Of a DNA stretch of 64,000 nucleotides, positions 7,816-23,737 are shown piece by piece. Position 1 is the first letter of the stretch, and every line of letters starts with the position of its first letter. The translations under genes and the position numbers were made by a program. The notes beneath the pieces are model-generated. The model searched no databases, was not told where the DNA came from, and saw only the letters and a program-made list of their open reading frames with translations. This stretch comes from Halosolutus gelatinilyticus. GTDB lineage: Archaea > Halobacteriota > Halobacteria > Halobacteriales > Natrialbaceae. Location of the stretch: contig NZ_CP095491.1 in assembly GCF_023028105.1 (NCBI RefSeq), forward strand, positions 2,604,001-2,668,000, read 5' to 3'.

Positions 7816-9705
7816 ATGTCAAACCGTTCCACGGCAAACAGTCCCAGAAAACTGAAAGCGACGAGTTCCCGTCGACGAGTCATCCAGGCGGTGGGTGTCG
7901 GTGCTGCTGTCGGTCTCGCCGGCTGCTCCGGGTCCGAGACGGGTGACGATGTGGACCTGCCGGAGGTCGAACTGTACGGCCCGGACGGCGATCGCGTCGA
8001 ACCGACGATTTACTTCGATCAGGGCGACAACACCCACCAGGATATCGCGTCCCAAATCCAGAGCGATCTCGAACTCATCGGGGTCGATCTGCAACTCGAG
8101 GGGAAGACGCAACTGATCGGCGACCACTTCAATTCAGAGCCGTTGCCAGACGAGAACCCGGAGGACTTCGAGTACAGCCCGGGGCTGTTCAACGCCGGGC
8201 CGCCGGATCGAACGCGGACGGTCTCCGACTGGGACATGCTCTACGGCATCGCCGCGAACTCGTACCCGCGGACGCCGGGGAACACCGACACGTTCTGGCT
8301 GAAGGATTCGGGCACGAACGCCTACGGCTACGTTCCGGAGGTCGATATGAACGGGCTGTACGAGGAGTTCCGGAACGCGGAGACGGAAGCCGAACAACAG
8401 GATGCGCTGAACCGGATCATGGGCGCGCTCACCGAGGAACTCCCGGCGAACTTCATGGCGGAGTCGAAGAACTTCTGGGGGTTCGAAGAGCGGATCAACA
8501 CGGCTGACGACTTCAATCTGTACGGATTCACGCCCAGTGCGCTCCACCGGTACCGCGACGAACAGACGATCGGGGGCGACTACGTTCGACTAACGGGAAA
8601 CCAGTTCAACGAGGCGTACCTGCCCGAACAGGAGGACAACAACTCGAGTTTCCGCACGGCGCTCATCTCGGACTACTCGTACGCGGTCGATACGAACGAC
8701 GAGGTATTTCCGTTGTTCATGGACGTCGAGGACGCAGGCGACGGGCAGGTGTTCGTCTGTACCCTCCGGGACAACCTCGAGTTCGGAACCGACGCGGACG
8801 GCAACCCGTACGGGCAGATGACGGCCGAGGACTGGGTCTACCAGATCGAGTACATTCACGGCCTGGCCGACGACGCCGCGGACGTCTGGAACGAGGAACT
8901 ACCCCCGGGACAACCCCAGGACTGGGCCGACGTCGAACACGTCGAGCAGACGGGAACGCTCGAGTTCCAACTCGAACTCGTCGAACCGGACTCGCTGTTC
9001 CCGCTTCGGCCGATCCTTTGGGGGGAGTACTGCTATCCGCGGGCGCTCTACGAGCAGTACGCGCCCGACGCCCAGGCGCTCCGCCAATCGGACGAAGTCC
9101 AGGAGTTCACCTGGACCGGGAACCTCGGCGCGTACACGTTCGAGGATCGAACGTCCGGGCAGACGGGATCGTTCACCGTCGTTCGCAACGACGACTACTA
9201 CATGCGCGAGCACACCGACGACAGCAACGTCCGGGCCATGGACGGCGCCTGGGCCGACGCGCCGTACTTCGATCAGTACCAGTTCGACACCGAATCCGAG
9301 CAGTCGACCCGGGTCGAGCGGTTCCGGAACCTGGAAGCCGATCGGATGGAACTGCCGAGCGAGCACGTCCAGGAGTTCGAGGAGACCGTCGACGAGATTC
9401 GCGTCGAAGAGGAGCAGGACCCGTACATCAGCTTCCTCTTTTTCAACCAGCGATCGAACGGGAGCGTCCTGACGCGGGACCGGGACGGCCGGGAGGCCAT
9501 CGCCCGCGTGGTCGACAAGGAGACGATCACCCAGAAGATCCAGCGCGGGAACGCGGACCCCGCGGTCACGTTCCAGCCGACGTGGTCCGACTGGTACGAC
9601 GAGTCCGCGGTCAACGTCTACGGTATCGACGTCACCGAGGACGATATCGCCGCGGCGCGTGACCTCCTGCGCGAGAACGACAATTTCACCCTCGAAGAAG
9701 TCTGA
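7816..9705 (+). CDS. peptide-type ABC importer solute-binding lipoprotein, circularly permuted
   Basis: A 629-residue exported lipoprotein of the SBP_bac_5 (oligopeptide/dipeptide/nickel) family. A twin-arginine signal (SSRRRVIQAV) ends in lipobox LAGC with C37 as the lipidated residue. The order of parts is unusual. Residues about 50-245 match what is normally the C-terminal third (a VELYGPDG strand, DIASQIQSDLELIGVDLQLE helix, DWDMLYG strand, the AEQQDALNRIMGALTEELP helix). Residues about 255-629 match the normal start and middle (VFVCTLRDNLEFG, MTAEDWVYQIEYI, NLGAYTFE, then AIARVVDKETITQKI and DDIAAARDLLRE at the very end). No part is duplicated. It should deliver ligand to the permeases encoded next; the ligand is unknown. 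It is the first gene of the operon. Confidence 0.88.
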   Translation: MSNRSTANSPRKLKATSSRRRVIQAVGVGAAVGLAGCSGSETGDDVDLPEVELYGPDGDRVEPTIYFDQGDNTHQDIASQIQSDLELIGVDLQLEGKTQLIGDHFNSEPLPDENPEDFEYSPGLFNAGPPDRTRTVSDWDMLYGIAANSYPRTPGNTDTFWLKDSGTNAYGYVPEVDMNGLYEEFRNAETEAEQQDALNRIMGALTEELPANFMAESKNFWGFEERINTADDFNLYGFTPSALHRYRDEQTIGGDYVRLTGNQFNEAYLPEQEDNNSSFRTALISDYSYAVDTNDEVFPLFMDVEDAGDGQVFVCTLRDNLEFGTDADGNPYGQMTAEDWVYQIEYIHGLADDAADVWNEELPPGQPQDWADVEHVEQTGTLEFQLELVEPDSLFPLRPILWGEYCYPRALYEQYAPDAQALRQSDEVQEFTWTGNLGAYTFEDRTSGQTGSFTVVRNDDYYMREHTDDSNVRAMDGAWADAPYFDQYQFDTESEQSTRVERFRNLEADRMELPSEHVQEFEETVDEIRVEEEQDPYISFLFFNQRSNGSVLTRDRDGREAIARVVDKETITQKIQRGNADPAVTFQPTWSDWYDESAVNVYGIDVTEDDIAAARDLLRENDNFTLEEV

Positions 9706-9750: not shown

Positions 9751-10815
9751 ATGAAATGGTATATTATTCGCCGGACGCTCTGGGCGGGATTCGCCTCGTT
9801 CCTCATCCTCACGATCACGTTCGTGTTGATGGATCAGGTCCCGAACCAGCAGATAATGGAGGCGGAGTTCCGGGCGGCGGTGGACGGCGTCGACGTCGAA
9901 ACCGCCGTCCAGGCAGAGAAGGAGCGTCTCGGACTGAATCGGCCGTTCCACGAGCGCTACATCGACTTCATGACGAACGTCTTCCAGGGCAACTGGGGCT
10001 GGTCCTACGAGTACGACCAGCCGGTCGTGGACGTCGTCCGCGAGACCGTGCCGTATTCGCTGCTGTACGGGGTCCCCGCGGTCGTCCTCTCGACGATCAT
10101 CGGGACGGCGATCGGGCTCTACTCGGCGGTCAACCAGTACACCAAGAAAGACTACGCGGCGACGTTCGCCGCGTTCTTCGGCATCAGCGTTCCGAACTTC
10201 TGGTTCGGCATCGTGTTACTGGTCGTCTTCGGATCCTGGCTCGGCTGGGTCGACATCGGCTGGAACGCCGCGCTTCCGAAGGCGGCCGACGGCAGCTGGA
10301 CGCTGCTAGAGACGGTCGACGACAGCCATCCGGCGTTCGTTCGCCAGGAGTTCAGCGGCGAGCGGTACGTCGGGATTCTCAGCCCAGCGAACCTCAAACA
10401 GCTCGTCCTGCCGACGTTCGTATTGATGACGGGTGCGATCGCCTCGGTCATGCGGTACGCGCGGGCGGAAGCGCTGGAGTACGTCGACGCAGATTTCGTC
10501 AAGACCGCAAAATCGAAAGGCGTCAGCAATTGGGCGATCGTCGTCAAACACATCTTCCGCCCGGCATCGATTCCGCTGCTGACGATCCTGGTCGGAAAGA
10601 TTCTCGGGCTGGTCCTCGCCGGCTCGTACCTGATCGAAGTGGTGTTCGGGATCCCGGGGATCGGCCTGGCGTCGTTCGAGGCGATCATCAGACAGGATAC
10701 GGATCTGGTCGCGATTACGATCCTCCTGCCGACGTTCGTGGCGATCGTCGGCAACCTCGTCGAGGACATCATGTACGCGATTCTCGATCCGCGAATCGAC
10801 TACGGTGATCGATGA
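9751..10815 (+). CDS. ABC importer permease, DppB/OppB type
   Basis: A 354-residue integral membrane protein of the BPD_transp_1 family. The N-terminal MKWYIIRRTLWAGFASFLILTITFVLMDQVP is the family start, followed by the large extracytoplasmic loop, the PYSLLYG segment and the cytoplasmic EAA loop (YVDADFVKTAKSKGVSNWAIVVKHIFRPA), which docks on the ATPase. It ends ILDPRIDYGDR as usual for DppB. About six membrane spans are visible. It starts 45 bases after the binding-protein gene and overlaps the next permease by ATGA. Between spans 3 and 4 the loop is longer than usual (TVDDSHPAFVRQEFSGERYVG). Confidence 0.93.
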   Translation: MKWYIIRRTLWAGFASFLILTITFVLMDQVPNQQIMEAEFRAAVDGVDVETAVQAEKERLGLNRPFHERYIDFMTNVFQGNWGWSYEYDQPVVDVVRETVPYSLLYGVPAVVLSTIIGTAIGLYSAVNQYTKKDYAATFAAFFGISVPNFWFGIVLLVVFGSWLGWVDIGWNAALPKAADGSWTLLETVDDSHPAFVRQEFSGERYVGILSPANLKQLVLPTFVLMTGAIASVMRYARAEALEYVDADFVKTAKSKGVSNWAIVVKHIFRPASIPLLTILVGKILGLVLAGSYLIEVVFGIPGIGLASFEAIIRQDTDLVAITILLPTFVAIVGNLVEDIMYAILDPRIDYGDR

Positions 10816-12041
10816 TGTGCGAGGAGACGGCCGAAGCGGACGGCGGCGTTCGGCGCGACGAAGCCACGTTCGAAACGGTCGACTGGGACGAGATCGACGC
10901 CGAAAGCGGGCGTCGGTCGAAAAAACACGTCGTCTGGATGGGGGTCGTGAGCCTGTGGACGCTCGGCGTCGCTTACGATCTCTACGCCCGGTACGTCGCC
11001 GAGATCGGACAGGCCGAGTTCCCCGTTCTCGGGCCGATTTCGCCGGTCGACTGGCTGTGGTCGATCACGCTACTCGTCCTCTTCTACTACGGGATCGTTC
11101 CGCTTTACGAGAACCGGCGGATGACGCGGTACTACTGGACGGAGTTCAAAAAGAACACGGCAGCGGTTATCAGCGCCCTGTTCCTGGTCGCGATCTTCGC
11201 GATCGGAATCGTCGGCGCTCGCGTCCTCCCTGAGCCGGAACCGACGCCGGGGCTGGAGAACCAACCGCCAGCGTGGGGGTCCGTTGAAGCATACGTCGCT
11301 GGCACCGAGTGTCCCGGCGGGACGGCGATGGTTGACGGCGTATTGATGTGCCAGGGAAGCTGGCAGCACCCGCTCGGAACGACGTCCTCGGGCGAGGACA
11401 TCCTCCTGGCGAGCGTCTACGGGATGGAGGTGAGCATGCAGGTCGGACTCATCGCGACGTTGATGAGCATCTCGGTCGCGGCGGCGGTCGGGCTGACGGC
11501 CGCCTACCACGGCGGACTCGTCGACGAGGCGCTGATGCGGTACGTCGACATCCAGATGACGTTCCCGACGTTCTTCATGTTCTTGCTGCTCGCGTACACG
11601 GTCGGCGGTAGCCTGTTCGTCCTCATTCTCATCTTCGGACTGTTCGGATGGGGGTCGTCCGCGCGGATCATGCGATCGGAGGCGCTCCAGCGGCGCGAGG
11701 AGCCGTACATGAAAGCCGCGAAAAACGCCGGCGCCTCGAGTCGGTGGACGATCCGGCGACACCTCCTGCCGAACATCTCCAACAGCCTCATCACCGCCGC
11801 GACGCTCACGATCCCGACGATCATCCTTTCGGAGGCCGCGATCGCGTTCCTCGGACTCGGCGATCCCACGGTCCCGTCGTGGGGGCGACTGATCGCGGAC
11901 GGCCGCGACCAGCTCAGCACGGCGTGGTGGATCTCGACGATTCCCGGTATCTTCCTGTTTTTCACCATCCTCGCGTTCAATTTCCTCGGCGACGCGCTCC
12001 GGGACGCGCTCGACCCGAGACACGGAGGGAGCGGAAAATGA
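10812..12041 (+). CDS. ABC importer permease, DppC/OppC type, N-terminally extended
   Basis: A 409-residue membrane protein, about 100 residues longer than bacterial DppC. The extra N-terminal part has an acidic stretch and two membrane spans (about 39-57 and 80-95) before the usual start (EFKKNTAAVISALFLVAIFAIGI). The conserved HPLGTTSSGEDILLASVYGMEVSMQVG segment and the EAA loop (EEPYMKAAKNAGASSRWTIRRHLLPN) are present, and it ends GDALRDALDPR. It overlaps both neighbours (ATGA at each end), so it is translated with them. What the two additional spans do is unknown. Confidence 0.92.
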   Translation: MMCEETAEADGGVRRDEATFETVDWDEIDAESGRRSKKHVVWMGVVSLWTLGVAYDLYARYVAEIGQAEFPVLGPISPVDWLWSITLLVLFYYGIVPLYENRRMTRYYWTEFKKNTAAVISALFLVAIFAIGIVGARVLPEPEPTPGLENQPPAWGSVEAYVAGTECPGGTAMVDGVLMCQGSWQHPLGTTSSGEDILLASVYGMEVSMQVGLIATLMSISVAAAVGLTAAYHGGLVDEALMRYVDIQMTFPTFFMFLLLAYTVGGSLFVLILIFGLFGWGSSARIMRSEALQRREEPYMKAAKNAGASSRWTIRRHLLPNISNSLITAATLTIPTIILSEAAIAFLGLGDPTVPSWGRLIADGRDQLSTAWWISTIPGIFLFFTILAFNFLGDALRDALDPRHGGSGK

Positions 12042-13192
12042 GCACACGAAACGACGACACGATCGACGCGGAGCTCGAATTGGAGAATGAACAGCCGCTA
12101 CTGGAGGTTCGAAACCTCCACGCGTACTTCAGGACGGACGGCGAGGACGTGAAGGCGGTCGACGGAATTTCGCTGACCGTCGACCCCGGTGAAACCGTCG
12201 CGATCGTCGGCGAAAGCGGGTCGGGGAAGACGGTCACGAGCGAAGCGATCACGCGGCTGTTCGCGTCCCCGCCGGGCTACATCCCGTCGGGATCGATCGA
12301 GATCAACGGCCGGGAGATCACGGAGCTATCCGCCGAGGAACTCCGGCGCGTCCGGGGCGGCGAAGTGAGCCACGTCTTCCAGAACCCGCAGGGGGCGTTG
12401 AACCCCGTGTATACGGTCGGCTGGCAGATCCGGGAAGCGATTCGGCTCCACGCCGACGTCTCCGGGGACGAGGCTCGCGAACGCGCCGTCGAGTTGCTCA
12501 CCCGAGTGGGGATTCCCGAGGCGAGTTCGCGACTCGACGATTACCCCCACGAGTTCTCCGGCGGCATGAAACAGCGAGTGCTCATCGCGATCGCGCTGGC
12601 CTGCGAACCGGACCTGTTGATCGCCGACGAGCCGACGACGGCCCTCGACGTGACGATCCAAGCCCAGATCCTGAAGCTGCTCAGGGAGCTACAGGACGAG
12701 CGGGACATGGGACTGCTGTTTATCACGCACGATCTGGGCGTCGTCGCCGAGATCGCCGATCGCGTGGCCGTGATGTACGCCGGCAAGATCATGGAGCGGG
12801 GATCGGTGACCGACATCTTCGAAACGCCGGCACACCCCTACACCCGGGCCCTCCTCGAGTGCCTTCCGGGCAGGGGGGAGCTGGGTGGAATCCCCGGCGA
12901 CCTTCCGGATCCCCGGTCCCCGCCGCCCGGCTGCCGGTTCGCGGACCGATGTCCGCACGCCGTCGAGGCCTGCCGCGACGGCGGTCAACCGCCGATGTAC
13001 CGGGTCGGAGACGCGCCGGATCACACGACCTCCTGCGTTCACTTCGGTCCCGGGAGGGACTCCGCCACCGTACTGGGGACGGACGCGGGCCAACAGACGG
13101 ATCCCGACCCGAACCCGGACCCGGACCCGGACCCGGAGTCTGCCCCGTCCGCGGGACCATCCGACGACGAGGAACGGAGTGATCGACGGTGA
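12038..13192 (+). CDS. ABC importer ATPase, DppD/OppD type
   Basis: A 384-residue ATP-binding subunit. Walker A is GESGSGKT (58-65), the Q-loop HVFQNPQG, the signature FSGGMKQR, Walker [13 protein letters not shown] and the H-loop FITHD. The C-terminal oligopeptide domain has its four-cysteine pattern ([21 protein letters not shown]). The tail carries an aspartate-proline repeat, then an acidic end. It pairs with the following ATPase to form the heterodimeric motor. The start at 12038 overlaps the permease stop by ATGA; the long frame upstream is a shadow of the permease. Confidence 0.94.
13103..13137 (+). repeat. GACCCG-type hexamer repeat encoding Asp-Pro repeat
   Basis: Tandem GACCCG/GGACCC words encode [14 protein letters not shown] near the C-terminus of the DppD-type ATPase. 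It is a short low-complexity tract that may vary in length between strains. Confidence 0.6.
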
Positions 13193-14553
13193 GCCGAGAC
13201 GACGACCCGCTGCTCCGAGTCGAGGGGCTGCAAAAACACTATCCGATCACCCAAGGGGCCCTGAACACCGAGGTCGGCCGGGCCCGCGCGGTCGACGGGA
13301 TCGACTTCGAACTCGAACGGGGCGAGACGTTCGGTATCGTCGGCGAATCCGGCTGCGGCAAGTCCACCGCCGCGTCGTCGATCGTCCGCCTCGAAGAGCC
13401 GACCGACGGGACGGTCGTCTTCGACGGCGAAAACGTCCTGGAGTACGACGCGGAAGCGCTCCGGCGGTTTCGCAGGGACGTCCAGTTGATTTTCCAAGAC
13501 CCGGATTCGAGCTTCGACCCTCGGATGAACATCGGCGACGCCGTCGCCGAACCCCTCGTCGTCCAGGGGATGACGGATCGCGAGCGGCGTCGAACGATCG
13601 TCGCCGACCTCCTGGAGCGCGTCGGCCTCTCGGCTGCGGATATGAAACGGTATCCCCACGAGTTCTCCGGGGGGCAAAAACAGCGGATCGGGCTGGCCCG
13701 CGCGCTCGCGGTGAATCCGAAGCTCATCGTCGCCGACGAACCCGTGTCCGCACTCGACGTCTCCGTCAAGTCGGAGATCCTCCGGCTCATCGACGAGTTC
13801 CAGGAGGCGCTGGATCTGACGGTCCTCGTCATCAGCCACGATCTGGGCGTCGTCCGGGAAGTGTGCGACCGGGTCGCGGTGATGTATCTGGGAGAGTTCG
13901 TCGAGGTCGGCCCGACCGAAGACCTGTTCGAGAATCCACAGCACCCGTACACCCGGGCGCTCCTGTCCGCCATCCCCACGCCCGACCCGCGGGATCGGGG
14001 ACTGGGCGTCGAACTCAGGGGCGACGTCCCGGACCCGTCGGCGCCGCCGAGCGGCTGTCGGTTCCACACGCGCTGTCCCGAGGTCATCCCCCCGGACGAG
14101 GTGGAGCTGACGCAGGACGTCTGGCGATCCCTGCTCCAGTTTCGCAAACAGGTCGATCGCGAGGCGATCGATCTCGACGGGATCGTCGAGGTGGGCCTGC
14201 TGGGGGCCGAGAAGTACGCTGCGCTCGAAGACGGGACGCCGGCGGACGTCGCCGACGAGGACCTCAAACGGTGGATTCGAACCGAGTACGAACTCCCCCA
14301 TCGTCTGGACGATCCGCGCGCCGAAGCGGCGGTCGAGGACGCGCTCGATGCGATCGTCGACGGCGAGTACGAACGAGCGAGCGCACGACTCGCCGCGGAG
14401 TTTACGACGGTCTGCGAACGCGAGCGACCGACACTGGAGGAGCGGGCTGGCGACCGGAAGGCGGCCTGTCACCTCCTCGATGGCGCGGGACGGCCGCGAC
14501 GGGATCCCGTCGACGGAGTGATCGGCGGCGGCTCGCCCGGATCGTCACGTTGA
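13189..14553 (+). CDS. ABC importer ATPase, DppF/OppF type, with insertion in C-terminal domain
   Basis: A 454-residue ATPase, about 120 residues longer than bacterial DppF. Walker A is GESGCGKS (52-59), the Q-loop LIFQDPDSS, the signature FSGGQKQRIGLARAL, Walker [12 protein letters not shown] and the H-loop VISHD. The C-terminal cysteine domain begins normally (GCRFHTRCPEVIP), but about 100 mostly helical, charged residues follow before the second cysteine pair (TTVCERERP, KAACHL). It starts with GTG, overlapping the previous stop as GTGA. It is the last gene of the operon and is followed by about 380 non-coding bases. Confidence 0.93.
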   Translation: MSRDDDPLLRVEGLQKHYPITQGALNTEVGRARAVDGIDFELERGETFGIVGESGCGKSTAASSIVRLEEPTDGTVVFDGENVLEYDAEALRRFRRDVQLIFQDPDSSFDPRMNIGDAVAEPLVVQGMTDRERRRTIVADLLERVGLSAADMKRYPHEFSGGQKQRIGLARALAVNPKLIVADEPVSALDVSVKSEILRLIDEFQEALDLTVLVISHDLGVVREVCDRVAVMYLGEFVEVGPTEDLFENPQHPYTRALLSAIPTPDPRDRGLGVELRGDVPDPSAPPSGCRFHTRCPEVIPPDEVELTQDVWRSLLQFRKQVDREAIDLDGIVEVGLLGAEKYAALEDGTPADVADEDLKRWIRTEYELPHRLDDPRAEAAVEDALDAIVDGEYERASARLAAEFTTVCERERPTLEERAGDRKAACHLLDGAGRPRRDPVDGVIGGGSPGSSR

Positions 14554-14935: not shown

Positions 14936-15457
14936 TTACGTGTCCGGTCTGGTGATCAGCGGCTCGTACTCCTCGTGTTCGAACGTTCCGAGGATCGTCC
15001 CGTCGATCTTCTTGAGGTGGGTGTAGAGGACGCCTTCGTCTTCGACAGACGCGATCATGCCGCCGGCCAGCATCATGTCGTACCGGCTCGCGATCAGGAT
15101 CGATCGCTCGTTTTCGGGATCGATGAGCTCGGTCACCACGTACATAAAGCCCTCGACGTCGGTGCCGTAGGCGAGGTACTCGGTGAACTCGTCGCTGTCG
15201 TAGACGTCCGTAAATCGGTCGGCGTAGTTGCCCGGGACGACGTGGACCAGGCCGAACTTGTCGTCCTCGCCCATGTCGCGGCTCACGGTGTCGGTGTGTG
15301 CGGCGACGATAGTCACGACCTCCCAGCCGTCGTCGCGACGATCTTCGGCGATTACCTCCATGTCTTCGAGCGTCCGTTTCCAGGCTTCCGTCTTTACACC
15401 CTCCGGATCTCGCCGTCGCAGGGCCCTCGGATCGGGGGCTTCGTTCTCGTCTTCCAT
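14936..15457 (-). CDS. conserved haloarchaeal protein of unknown function
   Basis: A 173-residue acidic cytosolic protein. The N-terminal RRRDPEGVKTEAWKRTLEDMEVIAEDRRDDGWEVVTIVAAHTDTVSRDM and the later LAYGTDVEGFMYVVTELIDPENERSILIASRYD form an alternating helix/strand pattern. I recognise it as a haloarchaeal family type but cannot name a function. It has no cysteine motifs, membrane spans or nucleotide-binding loop. It is on the same strand as the second ABC operon, 61 bases downstream of its last gene, and may be co-transcribed. Confidence 0.65.
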   Translation of the reverse strand: MEDENEAPDPRALRRRDPEGVKTEAWKRTLEDMEVIAEDRRDDGWEVVTIVAAHTDTVSRDMGEDDKFGLVHVVPGNYADRFTDVYDSDEFTEYLAYGTDVEGFMYVVTELIDPENERSILIASRYDMMLAGGMIASVEDEGVLYTHLKKIDGTILGTFEHEEYEPLITRPDT

Positions 15458-15518: not shown

Positions 15519-15968
15519 TCAGGTGACGCCCAAGGCGGTTTCCATCAGGAACGACACCAGCAACACCAGCAGGCTGCCGACCAGCAGCTTTCCCGGCGTC
15601 GTCATCCGGTCTTCCGGCGGCGGCGGTTGAATCCACCGGCCGGGCGGGAGCACGCTGACGAGCGTCTGGAACCGCGTCGTCTCGCCAGTTCCGGGAAGCG
15701 ATTCGCCGGTTCGATCCGTCGAGGCGGGGCTCGCGTCGTCGATGGAGGTCGGCCACAGGCGGACCGTCGCGTAGCTCAGAAGCGCCCAACCGCCGATGAA
15801 CAACAACAACTTCGCTCGAACGACGCCGCCGCCCGTCGCGATACCGAGTGCCAGGGCGCCGACGATAGTTAGCGCCGCGACGACGAGCGCGTACGCCAGG
15901 GCGTCAGCCCAGGTTCGGGCGATCTTCCCCAACTGTTCGCCGAACGGATCGGTCGGCGGCATCGTCAC
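15519..15968 (-). CDS. small membrane protein coupled to the second ABC operon
   Basis: A 149-residue protein with three hydrophobic segments (about 22-46, 52-70 and 126-146) and a proline/threonine-rich middle ([15 protein letters not shown]). The start overlaps the stop of the OppF-type gene as ATGA, so it is translated with the importer. Family unknown to me. The coupling makes an accessory role at the importer plausible, but nothing in the sequence shows one. Confidence 0.65.
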
Positions 15969-17305
15969 AGGTGACGACGTTCGAGGACGGTATCGGGTTC
16001 CGGATACTCGCCGTCGTGGCGGTGACAGTAGCTTTGCCGACCGCTTTCGGACACGTCGTGGTACGACGGTGACGTGCTCTCACAGACGCTTCCGAATTCC
16101 TCGGCCAACACCTCGAGCGCCTTCTCTTCCTCGTAATCGCTGGCGTACCCCTCGATTTCGTCCAGGACGGACTGGACGTGCGACGGCACGTCCACGTCGC
16201 CGAACAGCTCGTCATAGGTTTCTTCGACCGTCGCGAAGCGCGTCTTCTTCCCCATTTTCGTCCGGATGCGCTCCCGAACCGAGCGATCTGCCCGTTCCCG
16301 CTCGCGGAGCACCTCCCGGAGGGTGTTTAACCGGGCCCAGAGCTCGTCGTCAAGGCCCTGGTACTTCTGGGGACGGATTCGCGCCGGACAGCGCGTGCTA
16401 AACGGACAGCCCGACGGCGGATACCGCGGATTCGGGGGCGTTCCGTGGAGCGTGATTCGGTCTCGGTCGCTCGTCGGGTCCGGGTCGGGAATCGCTGACA
16501 GTAGCGCGTGCGTGTACGGGTTCGCCGGGTCAGTGAACAGCTCTTCGGTCGGACCGACCTCCATAATGTGGCCGAGATACATCACCGCAACCCGGTCGCA
16601 GATGTGGCGGACGACGGACAGGTCGTGGGCGATGAAGAGGTAGGTGAGCCCGAATTCCGCCTGAAGGTCCTCTAAGAGATTGATGATTTCGGCCTGTACG
16701 GAGACGTCAAGCGCCGACACCGGCTCGTCAAGCACGATGAAATCCGGCTCGAGCGCCAGCGTGCGGGCGATGCCGATCCGCTGGCGCTGCCCCCCGGAGA
16801 ATTGGTGGGGATACCGGTAGTAGTGTTCGCGCTGCAGTCCGACGGTGTCGAGCAGTTCACGGACCCGTTTGCGGCGCTCCCGAGGGGTCTTCCACTCCTG
16901 TGCGTCGAGCGGTTCGCGGATAATCTCCCCGATGGTCATCCGATCGTTGAGGCTCGAATCAGGATCCTGGAACACCATCTGTGCGTTTCGTCGCCACTCG
17001 TAGAGGTCGTCGCCCGAAAGTTCCGTGATGTCGGCGCCATCGAACTGAACTTCCCCGCCGGTGGCCTCCTCCAGATGGAGGAGCGTCCGGCCCAGCGTCG
17101 TCTTCCCGCAGCCGGATTCCCCGACCAGTCCGAGCGTCTCCCCGCGGTAAATGTCGAAGGAAACGCCGTCGACCGCCTTGACCGGCGTTTCACCGAACAG
17201 TCCGTTGCCGCCATAGTAGGTCTTGAGGTCGCGGACTTCGACCATCACCTCTCCGGTCTCGTCGGGCGTCGTCTCGACGTCGGACGAAATGGCGTCCTGA
17301 CTCAT
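15965..17305 (-). CDS. ABC importer ATPase, OppF type, with insertion in C-terminal domain
   Basis: A 446-residue ATPase. Walker A is GESGCGKT (62-69), the Q-loop MVFQDPDSS, the signature [15 protein letters not shown], Walker [12 protein letters not shown] and the H-loop FIAHD. As in the first operon's DppF, the C-terminal cysteine domain ([14 protein letters not shown]) is interrupted by about 95 charged helical residues (including [20 protein letters not shown]) before the second cysteine pair (GSVCEST and SYCHRHD). It overlaps OppD upstream and the small membrane protein downstream by ATGA. Confidence 0.93.
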
Positions 17306-18654
17306 CGCTCGGCACCTCCACTACGATCGTCCGCACGGTTTTCGTGTAACTCGACTGCGTTTTCCATCGGCAGGTTCTCCGGATAGAGTAGACAGGCCGC
17401 GGTGTGATCCTCGTCCGCCCCGTCGACGGACATCGAGACGGGATGGACCGCCTCGCAGGCGTCGAAGGCCTTCGGACACCGCGGGGCGAACCGACAGTAA
17501 GTCGCGGGCTCGTTCGGCGTCGGCACGCTGCCTTCTATCGTCTCCAGGCGCTCGCCGGACTGGCGCCCTGGAATCGACCGGAGCAGCCCCCGTGTGTACG
17601 GGTGTTTGGGGTTTGCGAACAGTTCCTCGACATTGGCCGTTTCGACGACTTCACCCGCGTACATGACGTTTACTCTGTCCGAAATCTCTGCGATGACGCC
17701 CATATCGTGGGTGATAAACATGATCGCAAGATCGCGCTCCCGCTGCAACTCCGCCAGCAGGTCCAGAATCTGTGCCTGAATGGTCGCGTCCAGCGCCGTC
17801 GTCGGCTCGTCGCAGATCAACACCTCGGGGTCGCAGGCCAGCGCCATCGCGATGACGGCCCGCTGGCGCATCCCACCGGAGAACTGGTGGGGGTACTCGC
17901 TCACGCGTCGACGAGCGTCGGGGATTCCGACGGCCTCGAGCAAGTTCGCCGCTTCCCGGGTTGCCTCTTCGCCTTTCAACCCCTGGTGCAGTTGGAGTGC
18001 TTCCTTGATCTGGTTCCCGACGGTGTATACGGGGTTGAGACTCGTCATCGGGTCCTGGAACACCATTGCGATTCGTCTGCCTCGCATGAGTCGCTGGGGT
18101 TCACCGCTGAGCCGAGCCATCTCGACGAATCCGCTGGCGATATCCTTGGGGGAGTCAGGGCTTCCCTCGGTGACGAACACGCAGTCGCCCTCGTCGACGA
18201 GCCCGAGTTTCTCGCCGTAGCCGCCCACGATGAAGTCGTCGAGCGTTGCCTCCCGTTTGTCGTCGTATCCGAACGCACTCGGCGTCGCGTCGACCTTGTC
18301 GAACAACTGCACCGGGTCGTACTGCTCCCCGAGCGCACCCAGATCGACGGTGCGACCAGGGAACTGCTCGGCGAAGTCTCGGACCGTCTCGATGTGGTGG
18401 AACCGGATGCTGCTTCCGTCGAGCACCCGACCGGGCGATTCGACGAGCCCCATCAGCGATCGAGCGGTGACGCTTTTCCCGGACCCGCTCTCGCCGACGA
18501 TGCCGACCGTCTCGCCGGGGACAATGTCGAAGGAGACGCCGTCGACCGCCCGAACCGTCTCCCGATCGGTGAAGAACGCGGTCCGGAGGTTCCGGACCTC
18601 GATGATCGGCTCGCTCCGGTTGGTCGTGGATTCGACCGTCGATTCGACGGCCAT
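17302..18654 (-). CDS. ABC importer ATPase, OppD type, with ~90-residue insertion
   Basis: A 450-residue ATPase. Walker A is GESGSGKS (54-61), but the Q-loop glutamine ([10 protein letters not shown]200) lies 140 residues after the Walker lysine instead of the usual ~45-50. The inserted piece (about residues 90-185: [20 protein letters not shown]-like charged stretch, [20 protein letters not shown]) is acidic. The signature [15 protein letters not shown], Walker [13 protein letters not shown]-loop FITHD and the C-terminal cysteines ([20 protein letters not shown]) are intact, so it should be an active motor subunit. It shares one base with the OppC stop and overlaps OppF by ATGA. Confidence 0.93.
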
Positions 18655-20390
18655 TATCCACCACCTCCGGCGCCGGCACCTTCGTTACCGATGTCCGCTT
18701 CCGGATCGACGGCGTCTCTGACGGCGTCTCCGAGGGCGTTGAACGCGAGGACGACCAGCGCGATCAGTATCCCGGAGATCGTCGAAACGTGCCACGACGA
18801 CGTCGGAATGAACGGCCGGCCGTCGCTGATGAGTCTGCCCCACTCCGGCGTCGGGGACTGGATGCCGAGCCCGAGGAACGACAGCGCAGCAACGCTGATG
18901 ATGACGCCACCGATCAGCAACGATGCGTAGATGATGATGTAGCTTGCGATATATGGAGCCATGTGTTTGCGCATGATGTTGTTCGGCGTCTGGCCGTAGC
19001 TCTTCGCCGCGTCGACCCACTCCTCTTCCGAGACCTGTAACGAGGGGCCGCGGATCGCCCGCCACATCGCCGGCCAGTAAGCCAATGCGAGGACGAGCGA
19101 CAGTAATAGTCCACCGTCCATCGGTTCTCGGAGCGGGTGGTTCTGGAAGACCACGAGGATCATCAACACCAGGACGAGAACGGGGATCGAGATGATGGTG
19201 TCGCTCACCACGATGGTCACGATGTCGAGTGCTCCCTTGTAGTAGGCGGTCATCAGTGACAACCCGACGGCGATGAGCCCACCCAGCGCCACCGACGAAA
19301 GCGAGATAACCAGCGACGTTCGGGCACCGAACGCGAGATGGGTGAGCATGTCCTGCCCGTCCGGTGTCGTCCCCAGCGGCGCGAACCGATCGTAATCGTC
19401 GTATTCCCAGAGTCCGACGGTGTTCTGACCGTTGGAGCGGCTGTCGAGGTTGGCGGTCCCGTGGAGGATCTGGTCGACCTCGCCCTCGTCGTTGAGGTAC
19501 GAGAACTCGTGGTTGTACGGCTCGTAGATGTTGTGTTCGGCCGGAACCGGACTGATCGCGGGAGCGAACACTCCGAGCGTGACGAATCCGATGACGATGA
19601 TCAGCCCGAAGATGCCCCAGGTGTGGTTTCGGAACCGACGAATCGTATCGTCCCGAGGCGTCCAGTCGGCTTCCCGGTAGTGCTCCCGATAGACGTTAAA
19701 GCCCTTCCACACCCACACGAGACAGGTGATCATGTACACCCACACGAGCGCGAACCTGATCGCCCATGCGTACTTGGGGGAGAGCCCGAGGAACGTCCCC
19801 TCCCACCCACCTTCGGGCGTTCTGTGACCCATGTTGGGAATCGTTTCACGGCTGGTGAGCGTCGGGAGCGACGACAGCGAGTCGAGCACACTGCCCCACA
19901 GGCTGACCTCTGCTTTGACGAGGCCCCCAATCGGCGTGAACGCCATCAGAACCGCGATGACGGCGAGAATCGCAGTCAGCACGAGTCGTTCGAGCCACGC
20001 CTTGGACTTGGGACTCCTGTCGACGTCCACGAAGTCGTCGATTCTCCAGGGCAGGTAGCTCTGGAGTACGATCGCCGCGATGAACAGGATACTGAGCGAT
20101 ACCACGTCGGAGACGACGGCGCCGATGACGGTTCCGAGAGCGTCGCCGACGTTGCCTCCGATCCAGCCCGGGATGGATGCGATACCCTCGAGCACGAATC
20201 GGCCGGCCTTGCCGAGCGCGAGCAGTCCGCCAAGTACCCTGCCGAACTCCAGTACGAACAGGACGGCGGCGCCGGCCAGCCAGAGCAGCGCCGGTCGCGG
20301 GTTGCGTTCGATGCGGTCCCGCAGCGTCCGTACCTCTGCGTCCGCACTCGCCGATTCAGCGGTCGTTTCGTTGGAGAGTGTGTTAGTCAT
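18654..20390 (-). CDS. ABC importer permease, OppC type, with ~245-residue N-terminal extension
   Basis: A 578-residue membrane protein, roughly twice the usual OppC length. Residues 1-245 are extra and contain about four to five membrane spans (near 35-50, 60-75, 92-110, 135-152 and 208-228). The regular OppC part then starts at RRFRNHTWGIFGLIIVIGFVTLGVFAPAISPVP. The canonical PLGTTPDGQDMLTHLAFGARTSL segment and the EAA loop (EEEWVDAAKSYGQTPNNIMRKHM) are present, ending GDAVRDAVDPEADIG and a glycine-rich tail. It overlaps OppB by ATGA. The extension's function is unknown. Confidence 0.92.
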   Translation of the reverse strand: MTNTLSNETTAESASADAEVRTLRDRIERNPRPALLWLAGAAVLFVLEFGRVLGGLLALGKAGRFVLEGIASIPGWIGGNVGDALGTVIGAVVSDVVSLSILFIAAIVLQSYLPWRIDDFVDVDRSPKSKAWLERLVLTAILAVIAVLMAFTPIGGLVKAEVSLWGSVLDSLSSLPTLTSRETIPNMGHRTPEGGWEGTFLGLSPKYAWAIRFALVWVYMITCLVWVWKGFNVYREHYREADWTPRDDTIRRFRNHTWGIFGLIIVIGFVTLGVFAPAISPVPAEHNIYEPYNHEFSYLNDEGEVDQILHGTANLDSRSNGQNTVGLWEYDDYDRFAPLGTTPDGQDMLTHLAFGARTSLVISLSSVALGGLIAVGLSLMTAYYKGALDIVTIVVSDTIISIPVLVLVLMILVVFQNHPLREPMDGGLLLSLVLALAYWPAMWRAIRGPSLQVSEEEWVDAAKSYGQTPNNIMRKHMAPYIASYIIIYASLLIGGVIISVAALSFLGLGIQSPTPEWGRLISDGRPFIPTSSWHVSTISGILIALVVLAFNALGDAVRDAVDPEADIGNEGAGAGGGG

Positions 20391-21439
20391 CTGTCGTATC
20401 CTACCCGTGGATCGATGATCGTGTACAGGAAGTCCTGTAGAAGGTTCAGGGAGATTATCAGTAGCGTGAACATGAACAAGAGCGCGCCTGCGAGCGGAAT
20501 ATCAGCGGCTACGAGCGCTCGGAAGTAAAGCGAGCCCAGCCCGTTGATGTTGAAGATGTACTCGATGATGACCGACCCGCCGATCAGGATGAACGCCTCG
20601 TTCGTGATGACGGGAACCAGGGGGATGAGTGCGTTCCGGAAGATATGCTTCCAGACGATCGCGCGGCTTTTGAGCCCCTTGGCCTTCGCCGTCTCGACGT
20701 AGTTCGAGTTGACCGTCTCCAGCACCGCCGTCCGACCGATGCGCATCTCGGTCGCCATCGACGCGGAGCCGAGGATGAGCGACGCCGGCAGTATCAACTT
20801 GAAGTCGGTCAGGAACGCCATCCAGTCCATAGCAGTTGGAAGCGGAACTCCGAACACGTTCGTGAGCGTGAGAAAGTCGAGCCCGGGCGTCCCGGTGATA
20901 CCACTGATGTCAGGACCGAGCGCGTACCAGTCGAAGCCCAGCACTCCGCCGCCTTTGGTCTTTCTGAGGAAGGCGAGCGCCATGACTGCCAGCCAGAAGT
21001 TCGGCATCGACAGCCAGAGGATGCTGCTCACCGAAGCGACGTAATCGCTCTTCGAGTTCGGATTAAGCCCGGCGTAGAACCCCAACGGAATGCCGATGAA
21101 CAGCGGAAGGAGGATCGCCCAGAACCCGAGCCAGATCGTCGTCGGCGCAACCTGGGCGACGATGTCCGTGATGGGCCGGTTCGCCTGGACGACCCACGAC
21201 TCCCCGGAGAACGTAAGGAGGTCCCGCATGAAATCGAGATACTGTTTCCAGAGCGGATCGTTGAGCCCCATTTGTTCTCGTAGCCGGGTGACGTCGGCGC
21301 CGCTCGCCTGTTCCCCGAGCCGCGCGGAGACCGGGTCCAGCGGCCCCAGCCGAAGCATCAGAAAGAGGAACGTAATCGCCGAAAACAGGACCGGGATCGA
21401 GAGCGCGATCCGCTTCACGAGATAGCCCCATCGGCTCAC
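20387..21439 (-). CDS. ABC importer permease, OppB type
   Basis: A 350-residue BPD_transp_1 permease. The start MSRWGYLVKRIALSIPVLFSAITFLFLMLRLGPLDP is typical of OppB. The EAA loop reads YVETAKAKGLKSRAIVWKHIFRNALIP, and the protein ends DFLYTIIDPRVGYDR. About six spans. It begins 151 bases downstream of the binding-protein gene, a larger gap than elsewhere in the operon; this gap is AT-rich in part and contains a small inverted repeat (GATTTTCAAATC near 21540), so partial termination or a second promoter is possible. Confidence 0.93.
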   Translation of the reverse strand: MSRWGYLVKRIALSIPVLFSAITFLFLMLRLGPLDPVSARLGEQASGADVTRLREQMGLNDPLWKQYLDFMRDLLTFSGESWVVQANRPITDIVAQVAPTTIWLGFWAILLPLFIGIPLGFYAGLNPNSKSDYVASVSSILWLSMPNFWLAVMALAFLRKTKGGGVLGFDWYALGPDISGITGTPGLDFLTLTNVFGVPLPTAMDWMAFLTDFKLILPASLILGSASMATEMRIGRTAVLETVNSNYVETAKAKGLKSRAIVWKHIFRNALIPLVPVITNEAFILIGGSVIIEYIFNINGLGSLYFRALVAADIPLAGALLFMFTLLIISLNLLQDFLYTIIDPRVGYDR

Positions 21440-21590: not shown

Positions 21591-23426
21591 TTACTCGTCG
21601 TTCTCCGACAGTTCGACGTGCCAGTCGAGGTAGTAGCCGTTGTTATCTCCCGGCATGCCGGAGGTGTCGGTGTTCTTCGGCTCGAAGCCGAAGTGCCCGT
21701 AGGCGACGCTCTCCCAGCTCCAGCCCCAGCCGAGGGAGTACATCTCGAGGTCGCCGTCGTAGCCGCGCTGTTGGAGCGTCGCGAACTGCGCCTGGTCGAG
21801 TTCGATCTCGACGCCGTTACCCGAGAGCTTGTCGCGCAGCAGGCCGGCGGCTTCCTGATAAACCACGCTCTCATAGGTCGTACAGGTCAGTTCGTACGGG
21901 TCGTCCGAGGTGTAGCCGGCCTCTTCGAGCACCTGTTTGGCGCCCTCGATGTCGGTCTCGTTGGCGCTGTAGGGGTATTCCTCGACGAACTTCTCGTAGC
22001 CGTCCTGGCCGGTGGGCCAGATGCCCGGCGGCGTGAAGCTGTACGCCGGGACGCCGCGTCCCGCGAAGACTTGGTTTACGATCTCCTCCTGATCGGTCAC
22101 GTACGCGATCGCCTGCCGGACCGGTTTGGGGACGTTTCGCGCGTTGAAGCCGAAGTAGCGGGTAACCAGCTCGGGAAGGCCGAGGTAGTTCACCGTCTCG
22201 CCGTTCTCCAGTTCGCCGTAGGTACCCGACTCTCGACCCATGTCGTCGGTCTCGGCGTCGATCTTGTTCGGGTCGTAGTACTGGGTCGGGATGGGGAAGA
22301 TATCGGCGTTCTTCTCCATCGCGTAGGTGTACCGCGCCTCGTCGTCCTCGACGATTTCGAAGTGGACCGACTCGACAGATGCGGTGTCGCGGTGGTAGTC
22401 GTCGAACCGCGTCAGCCGCAGTTCCTCGTCGATGGCGAACTCGTCGAGCTCGAAGGGACCGGTGCCGGCCGACATCGACGTCCGGAACTCCTGGCGGCCG
22501 ACCTCGCCGTCGTATCCCTCGATGTCGCCGACGAGACCCTCCGGAATGACCGAGAACGCGGTGTAGGTCAGCACGTCCATCACCGCGGGGTTCGGGTCTC
22601 GAACCTCCATCTCGAGCGTGTAGTCGTCGATCACTTCCAGCGCGGCCGAGTCTGGGACGGGGTTCCCTTCGTCGTCCTCCTCGTGGACGATCCCGACGCC
22701 GTCGGGGCTGTCGAGCATGAAGTTCGCGCGGACGCTGTTTTCCGATTCGATGACGCGGCGCCACGAGTACTTGACGTCGTGGGCCGTCATCTCTCCACCA
22801 GTGTGGAACGGCACGCCCTCCTTGAGGTGGAACGTGTAGGTCAGGTTGTCATCGGACAGTTCGAAATCATCGAGCAGCTGATTCTGGATCTCGGGGACGC
22901 CGTTGGGATACTCAACCAAGCGTTCGTACACTTGGGTGATGATGGTCGACGACGCCTCGTCGTCGGACTCGACGGGGTCGATGTGGTTGTGCGTGCTGTT
23001 GATCCGGTTCAGTTCGGTTTCACCCTCCAATTCGACCGTGTGGAGTTGCTGGTGCGCCTGGCCGAGGGGGCCGATTTTGGGGACGTCAACGTAGTCGTAC
23101 CAGAAGCGCTCGGAGAAGTCATGCAGGAAATTCAGCATGATCATGTCGTCTCGGACCGCTTCCTCGATCTCTACGTAGGCCTCGTTGCGCAGGTCCTGTG
23201 CGTCCGGTCCAGGGTTGCTCTGGATACGTTCCCAGGCCGCTTGCGCCTTGTCGGCGTAACTCTCTCCGTCGGTCCCATCCCCGCCGTCGCCGCCGTCGTC
23301 TTCGTCGCCGTCATCGCTGAGGAGGGCCGAACAGCCGGCCAGACTGACTGACGCGGTCCCACCGAGGGCCGCAAGCATTCGTCTGCGTGACTGTTTCACA
23401 CCCTTCCGATCGGAACTATCGGACAT
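21591..23426 (-). CDS. peptide-type ABC importer solute-binding lipoprotein, circularly permuted (second type)
   Basis: A 611-residue exported lipoprotein. Twin-arginine signal (QSRRRMLAALGG), lipobox SLAGC with C32, then an Asp/Gly linker. Residues about 57-135 match what is normally the extreme C-terminus of SBP_bac_5 proteins (YADKAQAAWERI, the DLRNEAYVEIEEAVRDDMIMLNF helix-strand, FWYDYVDVPKIGPLG). From about 136 the usual order begins (TELNRINSTHNHIDPVE, LTYTFHLKEGVPFHTGGEMTAHDVKYSW, GTGPFELDEF, VRQAIAYVTDQEEIVNQV, EGAKQVLEEAGY) and stops just where the moved piece would normally follow (EMYSLGWGW, NNGYYLDW). The start at 23426 is set by a promoter 25-32 bases upstream. Ligand unknown. 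Confidence 0.88.
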   Translation of the reverse strand: MSDSSDRKGVKQSRRRMLAALGGTASVSLAGCSALLSDDGDEDDGGDGGDGTDGESYADKAQAAWERIQSNPGPDAQDLRNEAYVEIEEAVRDDMIMLNFLHDFSERFWYDYVDVPKIGPLGQAHQQLHTVELEGETELNRINSTHNHIDPVESDDEASSTIITQVYERLVEYPNGVPEIQNQLLDDFELSDDNLTYTFHLKEGVPFHTGGEMTAHDVKYSWRRVIESENSVRANFMLDSPDGVGIVHEEDDEGNPVPDSAALEVIDDYTLEMEVRDPNPAVMDVLTYTAFSVIPEGLVGDIEGYDGEVGRQEFRTSMSAGTGPFELDEFAIDEELRLTRFDDYHRDTASVESVHFEIVEDDEARYTYAMEKNADIFPIPTQYYDPNKIDAETDDMGRESGTYGELENGETVNYLGLPELVTRYFGFNARNVPKPVRQAIAYVTDQEEIVNQVFAGRGVPAYSFTPPGIWPTGQDGYEKFVEEYPYSANETDIEGAKQVLEEAGYTSDDPYELTCTTYESVVYQEAAGLLRDKLSGNGVEIELDQAQFATLQQRGYDGDLEMYSLGWGWSWESVAYGHFGFEPKNTDTSGMPGDNNGYYLDWHVELSENDE

Positions 23427-23737
23427 AGCCGTGGAGTAATCATACATAATCCATAAACTTTCCGGAGGGAGTTCGTTCCAATCCCAGTGACTATTTATCC
23501 CTATTCGAGTGGTTTTCTACGAAATTAACCTATCTGGCCGTTCATTAAAAAATAGACCCCGTCCGCGTTAAAATGGGTAATATTTGCGCGCATCTCTTTA
23601 AAACCAGGATAACGTTGATTGTTTATGCGAGCATCGTCGCTCGTATTAATGGGATAAAGTTGTCACAATACCCCGCTGTACCGATCGTAACGCGCCGTTA
23701 CTTCGCACGACGGTCCGTCGTCCGTCGGAAGGTGCAG
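23427..23737. other. 311-bp AT-rich intergenic region
   Basis: This stretch is much more AT-rich than its surroundings (runs such as TTCATTAAAAAATAG and ATCTCTTTAAAACC). It holds the promoter of the second ABC operon near 23451-23458 and must contain the 3' end of the phosphoribosyltransferase transcript. No gene was recognised; the plus-strand open frame at 23573 has no recognisable domain. Confidence 0.5.
23451..23458 (-). promoter_or_regulatory. TATA-like promoter of the second ABC importer operon
   Basis: The minus strand reads GTTTATGG 25-32 bases before the ATG at 23426, giving a leaderless transcript. A second candidate, GGATAAATAG at 23491-23500, would give a ~40-base leader. Confidence 0.45.

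Follow-up and report, generated by a model that had tools for sequence, protein, structure and literature searches.

Circularly permuted substrate-binding proteins

A natural circular permutation is usually an ancient event that happened once and that is known from structures of low sequence identity. Among the substrate-binding proteins (SBPs) of ABC importers, a permuted form has been described for TpMglB-2 (Tp0684) of Treponema pallidum, which has been termed "Type Ic / Cluster Bc" (PMC4990184), and the CPSARST search has brought together a permutation-related family of glycine betaine-binding proteins (2B4L, 1R9L and 1SW1, of the OpuAC/ProX type) and molybdate-binding proteins (PMC2395249). 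The protein analysed here, SBP1, belongs by sequence family and predicted fold to the DppA, OppA, NikA and AppA proteins (SBP_bac_5, PF00496, cluster C), but unlike these its chain is rotated, with new ends inside the molecule at about position 342/343 of DppA. Like TpMglB-2, it is a naturally permuted and membrane-tethered SBP that keeps its fold, whereby the tether of SBP1 is inferred and its fold predicted. TpMglB-2, however, is a member of a cluster B sugar-binding family that is unrelated to SBP1 in sequence and for which one topology has been described, whereas the family of SBP1 very probably went through repeated independent events, with several cuts and with canonical orthologues in the same operon. 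No relation of SBP1 to cluster B (MglB) was found, as the matches in Pfam, in the PDB sequences and at the top of the Foldseek list are to cluster C only. The OpuAC/ProX and molybdate-binding proteins share the permutation relation, but they are other SBP families with less than 24% mutual identity and were found by structure only, whereas permuted and canonical SBP_bac_5 forms are 42-56% identical.

A permuted SBP_bac_5 protein has not been reported in the literature searched, which lacked most subscription journals, and to that extent the statement of a preliminary description of the locus that it knew of no permuted family members in haloarchaea has held. The PDB, too, yielded no structure of an SBP from cluster C with permuted order (60 best matches, none collinear with the permuted profile). 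Permuted SBPs of other clusters are thus already known, the permutation in SBP_bac_5 appears to be new, and what surprises most is that it recurs at one site. As the permuted and canonical orthologues are that similar, occur in the same operons and reuse the same loop, the origin of permutations, the reuse of a loop and the effect of the tether on ABC import become testable. There is also a practical side, since domain annotation and orthology calls halve permuted SBPs.

The rotated order of SBP1

The window, i.e. the whole stretch of DNA that was analysed, comprises 64,000 nucleotides of the Halosolutus gelatinilyticus genome (NZ_CP095491.1, positions 2,604,001 to 2,668,000). SBP1 (also P0001 and L017) is encoded therein by a single open reading frame without stops, and its parts are as follows:

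7816..9705, + strand: SBP1, SBP_bac_5 protein of 629 aa, very likely circularly permuted (cut type A), inferred lipoprotein
7816..7968, + strand: residues 1-51, signal peptide (RR at residues 19-20), lipobox LAGC (Cys37) and acidic linker, as read from the sequence
7969..8511, + strand: residues 52-232, transposed block that corresponds to the canonical C-terminal ~190 residues (canonical HMM 385-564)
8512..8553, + strand: residues 233-246, new internal joint between the old C-terminus and the old mature N-terminus
8554..9678, + strand: residues 247-621, canonical N-terminal ~380 residues (HMM 21-373)

The N-terminus contains RRRVIQAVGVGAAVGLAGC, in which a Tat-like RR motif, a hydrophobic stretch and the lipobox cysteine were sought. 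The TAT signal model TIGR01409 matches weakly (11.5 bits, cut-off 16.7), and secretion by the Tat pathway as well as lipidation at Cys37 are inferred.

The only Pfam family found in SBP1 is SBP_bac_5, with 114.1 bits at a gathering cut-off of 32.4, and the best stretch assigns residues 307-621 to profile positions 13-276 of 368. The nickel-SBP model TIGR02294 matches with its positions 339-380 to residues 57-98, so that a late part of the family comes first. The order was resolved with two HMMs that were made from 18 aligned haloarchaeal relatives of canonical order, split at the cut: residues 56-232 match the C-part (E 5e-44) and residues 247-621 the N-part (E 4e-104), and canonical relatives carry both parts in the opposite order, such as L028 with the N-part at 35-408 and the C-part at 413-605. 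Rotation of SBP1 raises its global alignment score with L028, which is 705 without it, to about 995, at an identity of 42.3% over 549 residues. When only the block was shuffled, the mean score was 694, from which the real block deviates with a Z of 23.7. The Pfam match of the rejoined sequence is one collinear stretch from 13 to 326. This rejoining yields only about 6 additional bits (114 to 120), as the Pfam profile is limited to the middle of the protein; the strong evidence for the permutation is the subfamily HMM rather than Pfam.

The chain terminates shortly past the RDLLRE helix, and neither a duplicated segment in the protein nor noteworthy tandem repeats within the gene were detected. 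SBP1 thus shows what is expected of a natural circular permutant, namely every part once, a rotated order and a close unrotated homologue. It is very likely (probability about 0.93) that SBP1 is a genuine natural circular permutation of a DppA/OppA-type lipoprotein of cluster C. This had been proposed in the preliminary description, according to which the canonical C-terminal block comes first after the lipobox and nothing is duplicated, and both held, the former by HMM order, rotation and predicted fold. The block limits given there (about residues 50 to 245) were correct within a few residues. The profile search that it had suggested as a check was passed with the rejoined sequence, the longer collinear match appearing only upon rejoining, and the collinear SBP_bac_5 alignment over residues 50-629 that would have refuted the claim was not seen: the native protein has no collinear full-length family match, as the C-part precedes the N-part.

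The predicted fold

An AlphaFold model of SBP1 that was built with 56 alignment rows reached a pLDDT of 86.8 and a pTM of 0.83. It is ordered from about residue 45 on except for the joint, with disorder only at residues 1-42 and 235-240 (pLDDT below 50 in the latter). In collinear Foldseek comparisons, the model aligned with DppA (1dpp_A) at a TMt of 0.40 over 283 columns, which is about half its length, and with 1xoc_A at 0.52 over 390 columns, whereas the model of the canonical L028, treated by the same procedure as a control, reached 0.83 over 597 columns and 0.85 over 584 columns, respectively. A predicted topology in DppA order without permutation, the second outcome that would have spoken against the claim, was thus not seen. 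The best matches over the collinear half include 1xoc, 6ofq and 1dpp, all of them cluster C SBPs, and the order of predicted secondary structures fits a rotated canonical model best at about residue 244. The two-lobe fold of the DppA type is in this sense met by the prediction; the full fold is inferred from the rotation, without a permutation-aware superposition. Most likely, SBP1 would adopt the usual Venus-flytrap fold, for which there is no experimental structure.

A second permuted protein and the operons of the window

The window encodes a second protein of this kind on the opposite strand:

21591..23447, - strand: SBP2, second circularly permuted SBP_bac_5 protein, 618 aa, cut type C, inferred lipoprotein

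In canonical relatives such as L169, the last 77 residues correspond to residues 65-141 of SBP2 (49% identity) and the remainder to its residues 141-610 (58% identity); after rotation, SBP2 and L169 are 56.5% identical over 552 residues. SBP2 is therefore permuted too, with a cut elsewhere than in SBP1. The preliminary description had treated SBP1 alone, and this has to be extended, since besides SBP2 four more SBPs of the genome are permuted, which makes 6 of its 18 SBP_bac_5 proteins (L004, L006, L008, L010, L015 and L017, the latter being SBP1).

SBP1 is the first gene of an operon that resembles cluster C systems in having two BPD_transp_1 permeases and two ABC_tran/oligo_HPY ATPases of the dipeptide type, and a similar set of genes follows SBP2:

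9751..10815, + strand: permease B of operon 1 (BPD_transp_1)
10812..12041, + strand: permease C of operon 1 (OppC_N and BPD_transp_1)
12038..13192, + strand: ATPase D of operon 1 (ABC_tran and oligo_HPY)
13189..14553, + strand: ATPase F of operon 1 (ABC_tran and oligo_HPY)
15965..21439, - strand: operon 2 behind SBP2, with permease B, permease C, ATPase D and ATPase F

The order SBP, permease B, permease C, ATPase D, ATPase F is common to permuted and canonical relatives, and most of their permeases share 42-69% identity with the permeases of the window. In Natrialba asiatica (L055), the two operons adjoin in divergent orientation and both SBPs have the canonical order, and in another genome (G077) SBP2 is permuted while the collinear match of the neighbouring SBP1 homologue is confined to the body of SBP1, which is the pattern of canonical members. 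The operon context is thus conserved. As permuted and canonical forms share it, the transport function is probably kept, and it is likely that permuted SBPs in general retain it, although this is inferred and there are no binding or transport data. Like the canonical orthologues that occupy this place in the operon, SBP1 would then supply the dipeptide-type importer encoded downstream of it with a substrate that is peptide-like or similar.

Some peculiarities of the window concern other genes. ATPase D of operon 2 (17302-18654, - strand) has an insertion of about 90-100 aa in ABC_tran between Walker A and Q-loop, and its Pfam ABC_tran match is split into two stretches. Permease C of the same operon (18654-20390, - strand) carries an N-terminal extension of about 240 aa with several hydrophobic stretches before OppC_N. 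Between the two convergent transporter operons lies a DUF7529 gene (14936-15457, - strand; E 6.5e-53).

Distribution of permuted forms

Full-length permuted relatives of SBP1 are found in other species at identities from 85% down to 30-40%, and the permuted order occurs in independent genomes of Natribaculum breve (L049), Halorientalis (L050), Haloferax (L059) and Natronosalvus (L051). Among 194 sampled haloarchaeal species, at least 85 have the family of the L008 type in full length and permuted order, and a Haloferax-like genome (G078) has three permuted proteins among nine SBP_bac_5 proteins. The haloarchaeal framing of the preliminary description has to be widened, as permuted SBP_bac_5 proteins occur also in other archaea and in Alphaproteobacteria. 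In a non-halobacterial archaeon (G293), Pfam itself places profile positions 290-367 upstream of 1-287. On alphaproteobacterial plasmids, the cut-A form was found in Ketogulonicigenium, Nitratireductor and Microvirga, checked with the two HMMs, and on plasmid records of Neorhizobium, Roseomonas and Maritalea on the basis of collinear tblastn. Bacteria were sampled through plasmid records only, so that the bacterial distribution is a lower bound. Where annotated, the alphaproteobacterial permuted SBPs are part of SBP-permease-permease-ATPase-ATPase operons, and the three that were inspected (L249-L251) have no lipobox in the N-terminal sequence. The operons of L249 and L250 adjoin genes of hydantoinase/oxoprolinase, M28 peptidase or racemase, a hint that the substrates may be derivatives of amino acids or of cyclic peptides.

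Cut sites and number of origins

In the numbering of mature E. coli DppA, cut A lies at about 342/343, cut B (Halorubrum) at about 319/320, and cut C (SBP2) at about 424. The mapping rests on an alignment of distant proteins and is approximate by a few residues, and all three sites lie inside domain II of DppA. Independent cut-A proteins open within a few residues of one point, between "...YGYD" and "GD.LLGPDGEQV...".

The tree of the SBP1 subfamily needs three origins for cut A and one for cut B. A single cut-A clade is rejected there with an AU p of 7.5e-19 and a log-likelihood that is 661 lower, and also by the body alone (p 1e-50) and the block alone (p 2e-48). In the tree of the wider family, well-supported branches force all five origins of cut A, while cut B has one origin and cut C one or two. 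The deep branches of this tree are long and its root was not inferred, for which reason the three plus one origins of the subfamily are more certain than the total of about seven. It is thus very likely that cut A has been used independently at least three times in the SBP1 subfamily, and with less certainty about five times in the wider family. While the recurrence at three cut sites is shown, a bolder reading can be considered likely, in which cluster C SBPs repeatedly switch their topology in place within working transporter operons of Archaea and Alphaproteobacteria, with about seven or more independent permutations that fall mostly at DppA ~342/343 but also at ~319/320 and ~424, and with at least one possible return to the canonical order. 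If true, this would be a natural experiment on the cuts that a two-lobed binding protein tolerates.

The candidate for such a return is L173 (G013:C1:74734-76167), which has the canonical order but branches from within the cut-C group. It may represent a reversal of the permutation, two origins of cut C, or an error of the tree.

Alternative explanations

It could be argued that SBP1 is not permuted but truncated, its C-terminal part having been lost and an unrelated domain acquired at the N-terminus, and indeed Pfam alone covers only positions 13-276 in its best stretch, while the block alone scores 15.6 bits and thus remains under the cut-off. However, the block matches the canonical C-terminal part over its whole length with the E-value given above, for which reason a fusion with an unrelated domain was rejected, the native and rejoined comparisons agree, and the secondary structure order fits a rotated canonical model; this explanation is all but ruled out. 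Hardly any room is left either for an artefact of assembly, frameshift or annotation, for which no supporting point was found and against which stand the single frame without stops and the identical order in the independent genomes named above. An assembly error was rejected, as full-length permuted relatives exist in other species.

More has to be said about the genuine permutation having arisen only once, with the scatter in the tree being due to recombination, tree error or members that reverted to the canonical order. The reuse of cut site A each time and a few weak placements (L117, and the canonical L173 inside the cut-C group) would be in line with this. On the other hand, a single cut-A clade is rejected by the tests described above, cuts B and C are elsewhere in the sequence, and reversions would themselves be permutations, so that the number of events does not fall. 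A single origin is therefore very unlikely, and we prefer repeated permutation. As to its reason, the permutation may be adaptive in that the tether moves from lobe I to lobe II and thereby alters permease docking or the freedom of the cleft. This idea was proposed for the cluster B protein TpMglB-2 by Brautigam et al. 2016 (PMC4990184), and it is supported by the observations that every inspected haloarchaeal permuted form is a lipobox protein with a long linker and that the three cuts fall in DppA domain II. The shift of the lipid anchor relative to the cleft, already pointed out in the preliminary description, does follow from the cut. It can hardly explain the permutations in general, however, since the inspected alphaproteobacterial permuted SBPs lack a lipobox; moreover, canonical and permuted forms fill the same operon in related species, and an adaptive permutation is considered unlikely.

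How the permutations may have arisen

In SBP1, the old C-terminus would have been joined to the old mature N-terminus, and the new ends would lie in an exposed loop that connects the DPxxARxLL helix to the next strand. Such proteins may be derived from SBP genes that were duplicated in tandem and fused, with the redundant halves trimmed afterwards. The permutations may have been tolerated because the native ends are close together on lobe I and because the loops at the cuts are exposed; both are inferences. The joints range from 3-4 residues (L043) to about 28 residues (L105), and that of L105 resembles the post-lipobox linker of canonical relatives. Such a joint apparently keeps the linker of a second copy, and it therefore fits a fusion of tandem copies with subsequent trimming. 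Two proteins flagged as intermediates with a duplicated block (L093 and L098) were rejected, as they have internal gaps of one block. Since no half-way form, i.e. a tandem fusion with both copies, was found among the 182 proteins tested, a route through duplication has not been demonstrated. Adjacent pairs of SBP genes do exist, for example L008/L010 and L009/L014.

The genes of the former pair (G000:C1:3011937-3016463) both encode cut-A proteins that are 53% identical, and the pair recurs in many Natrialbaceae. It represents a tandem duplication that postdates the permutation.
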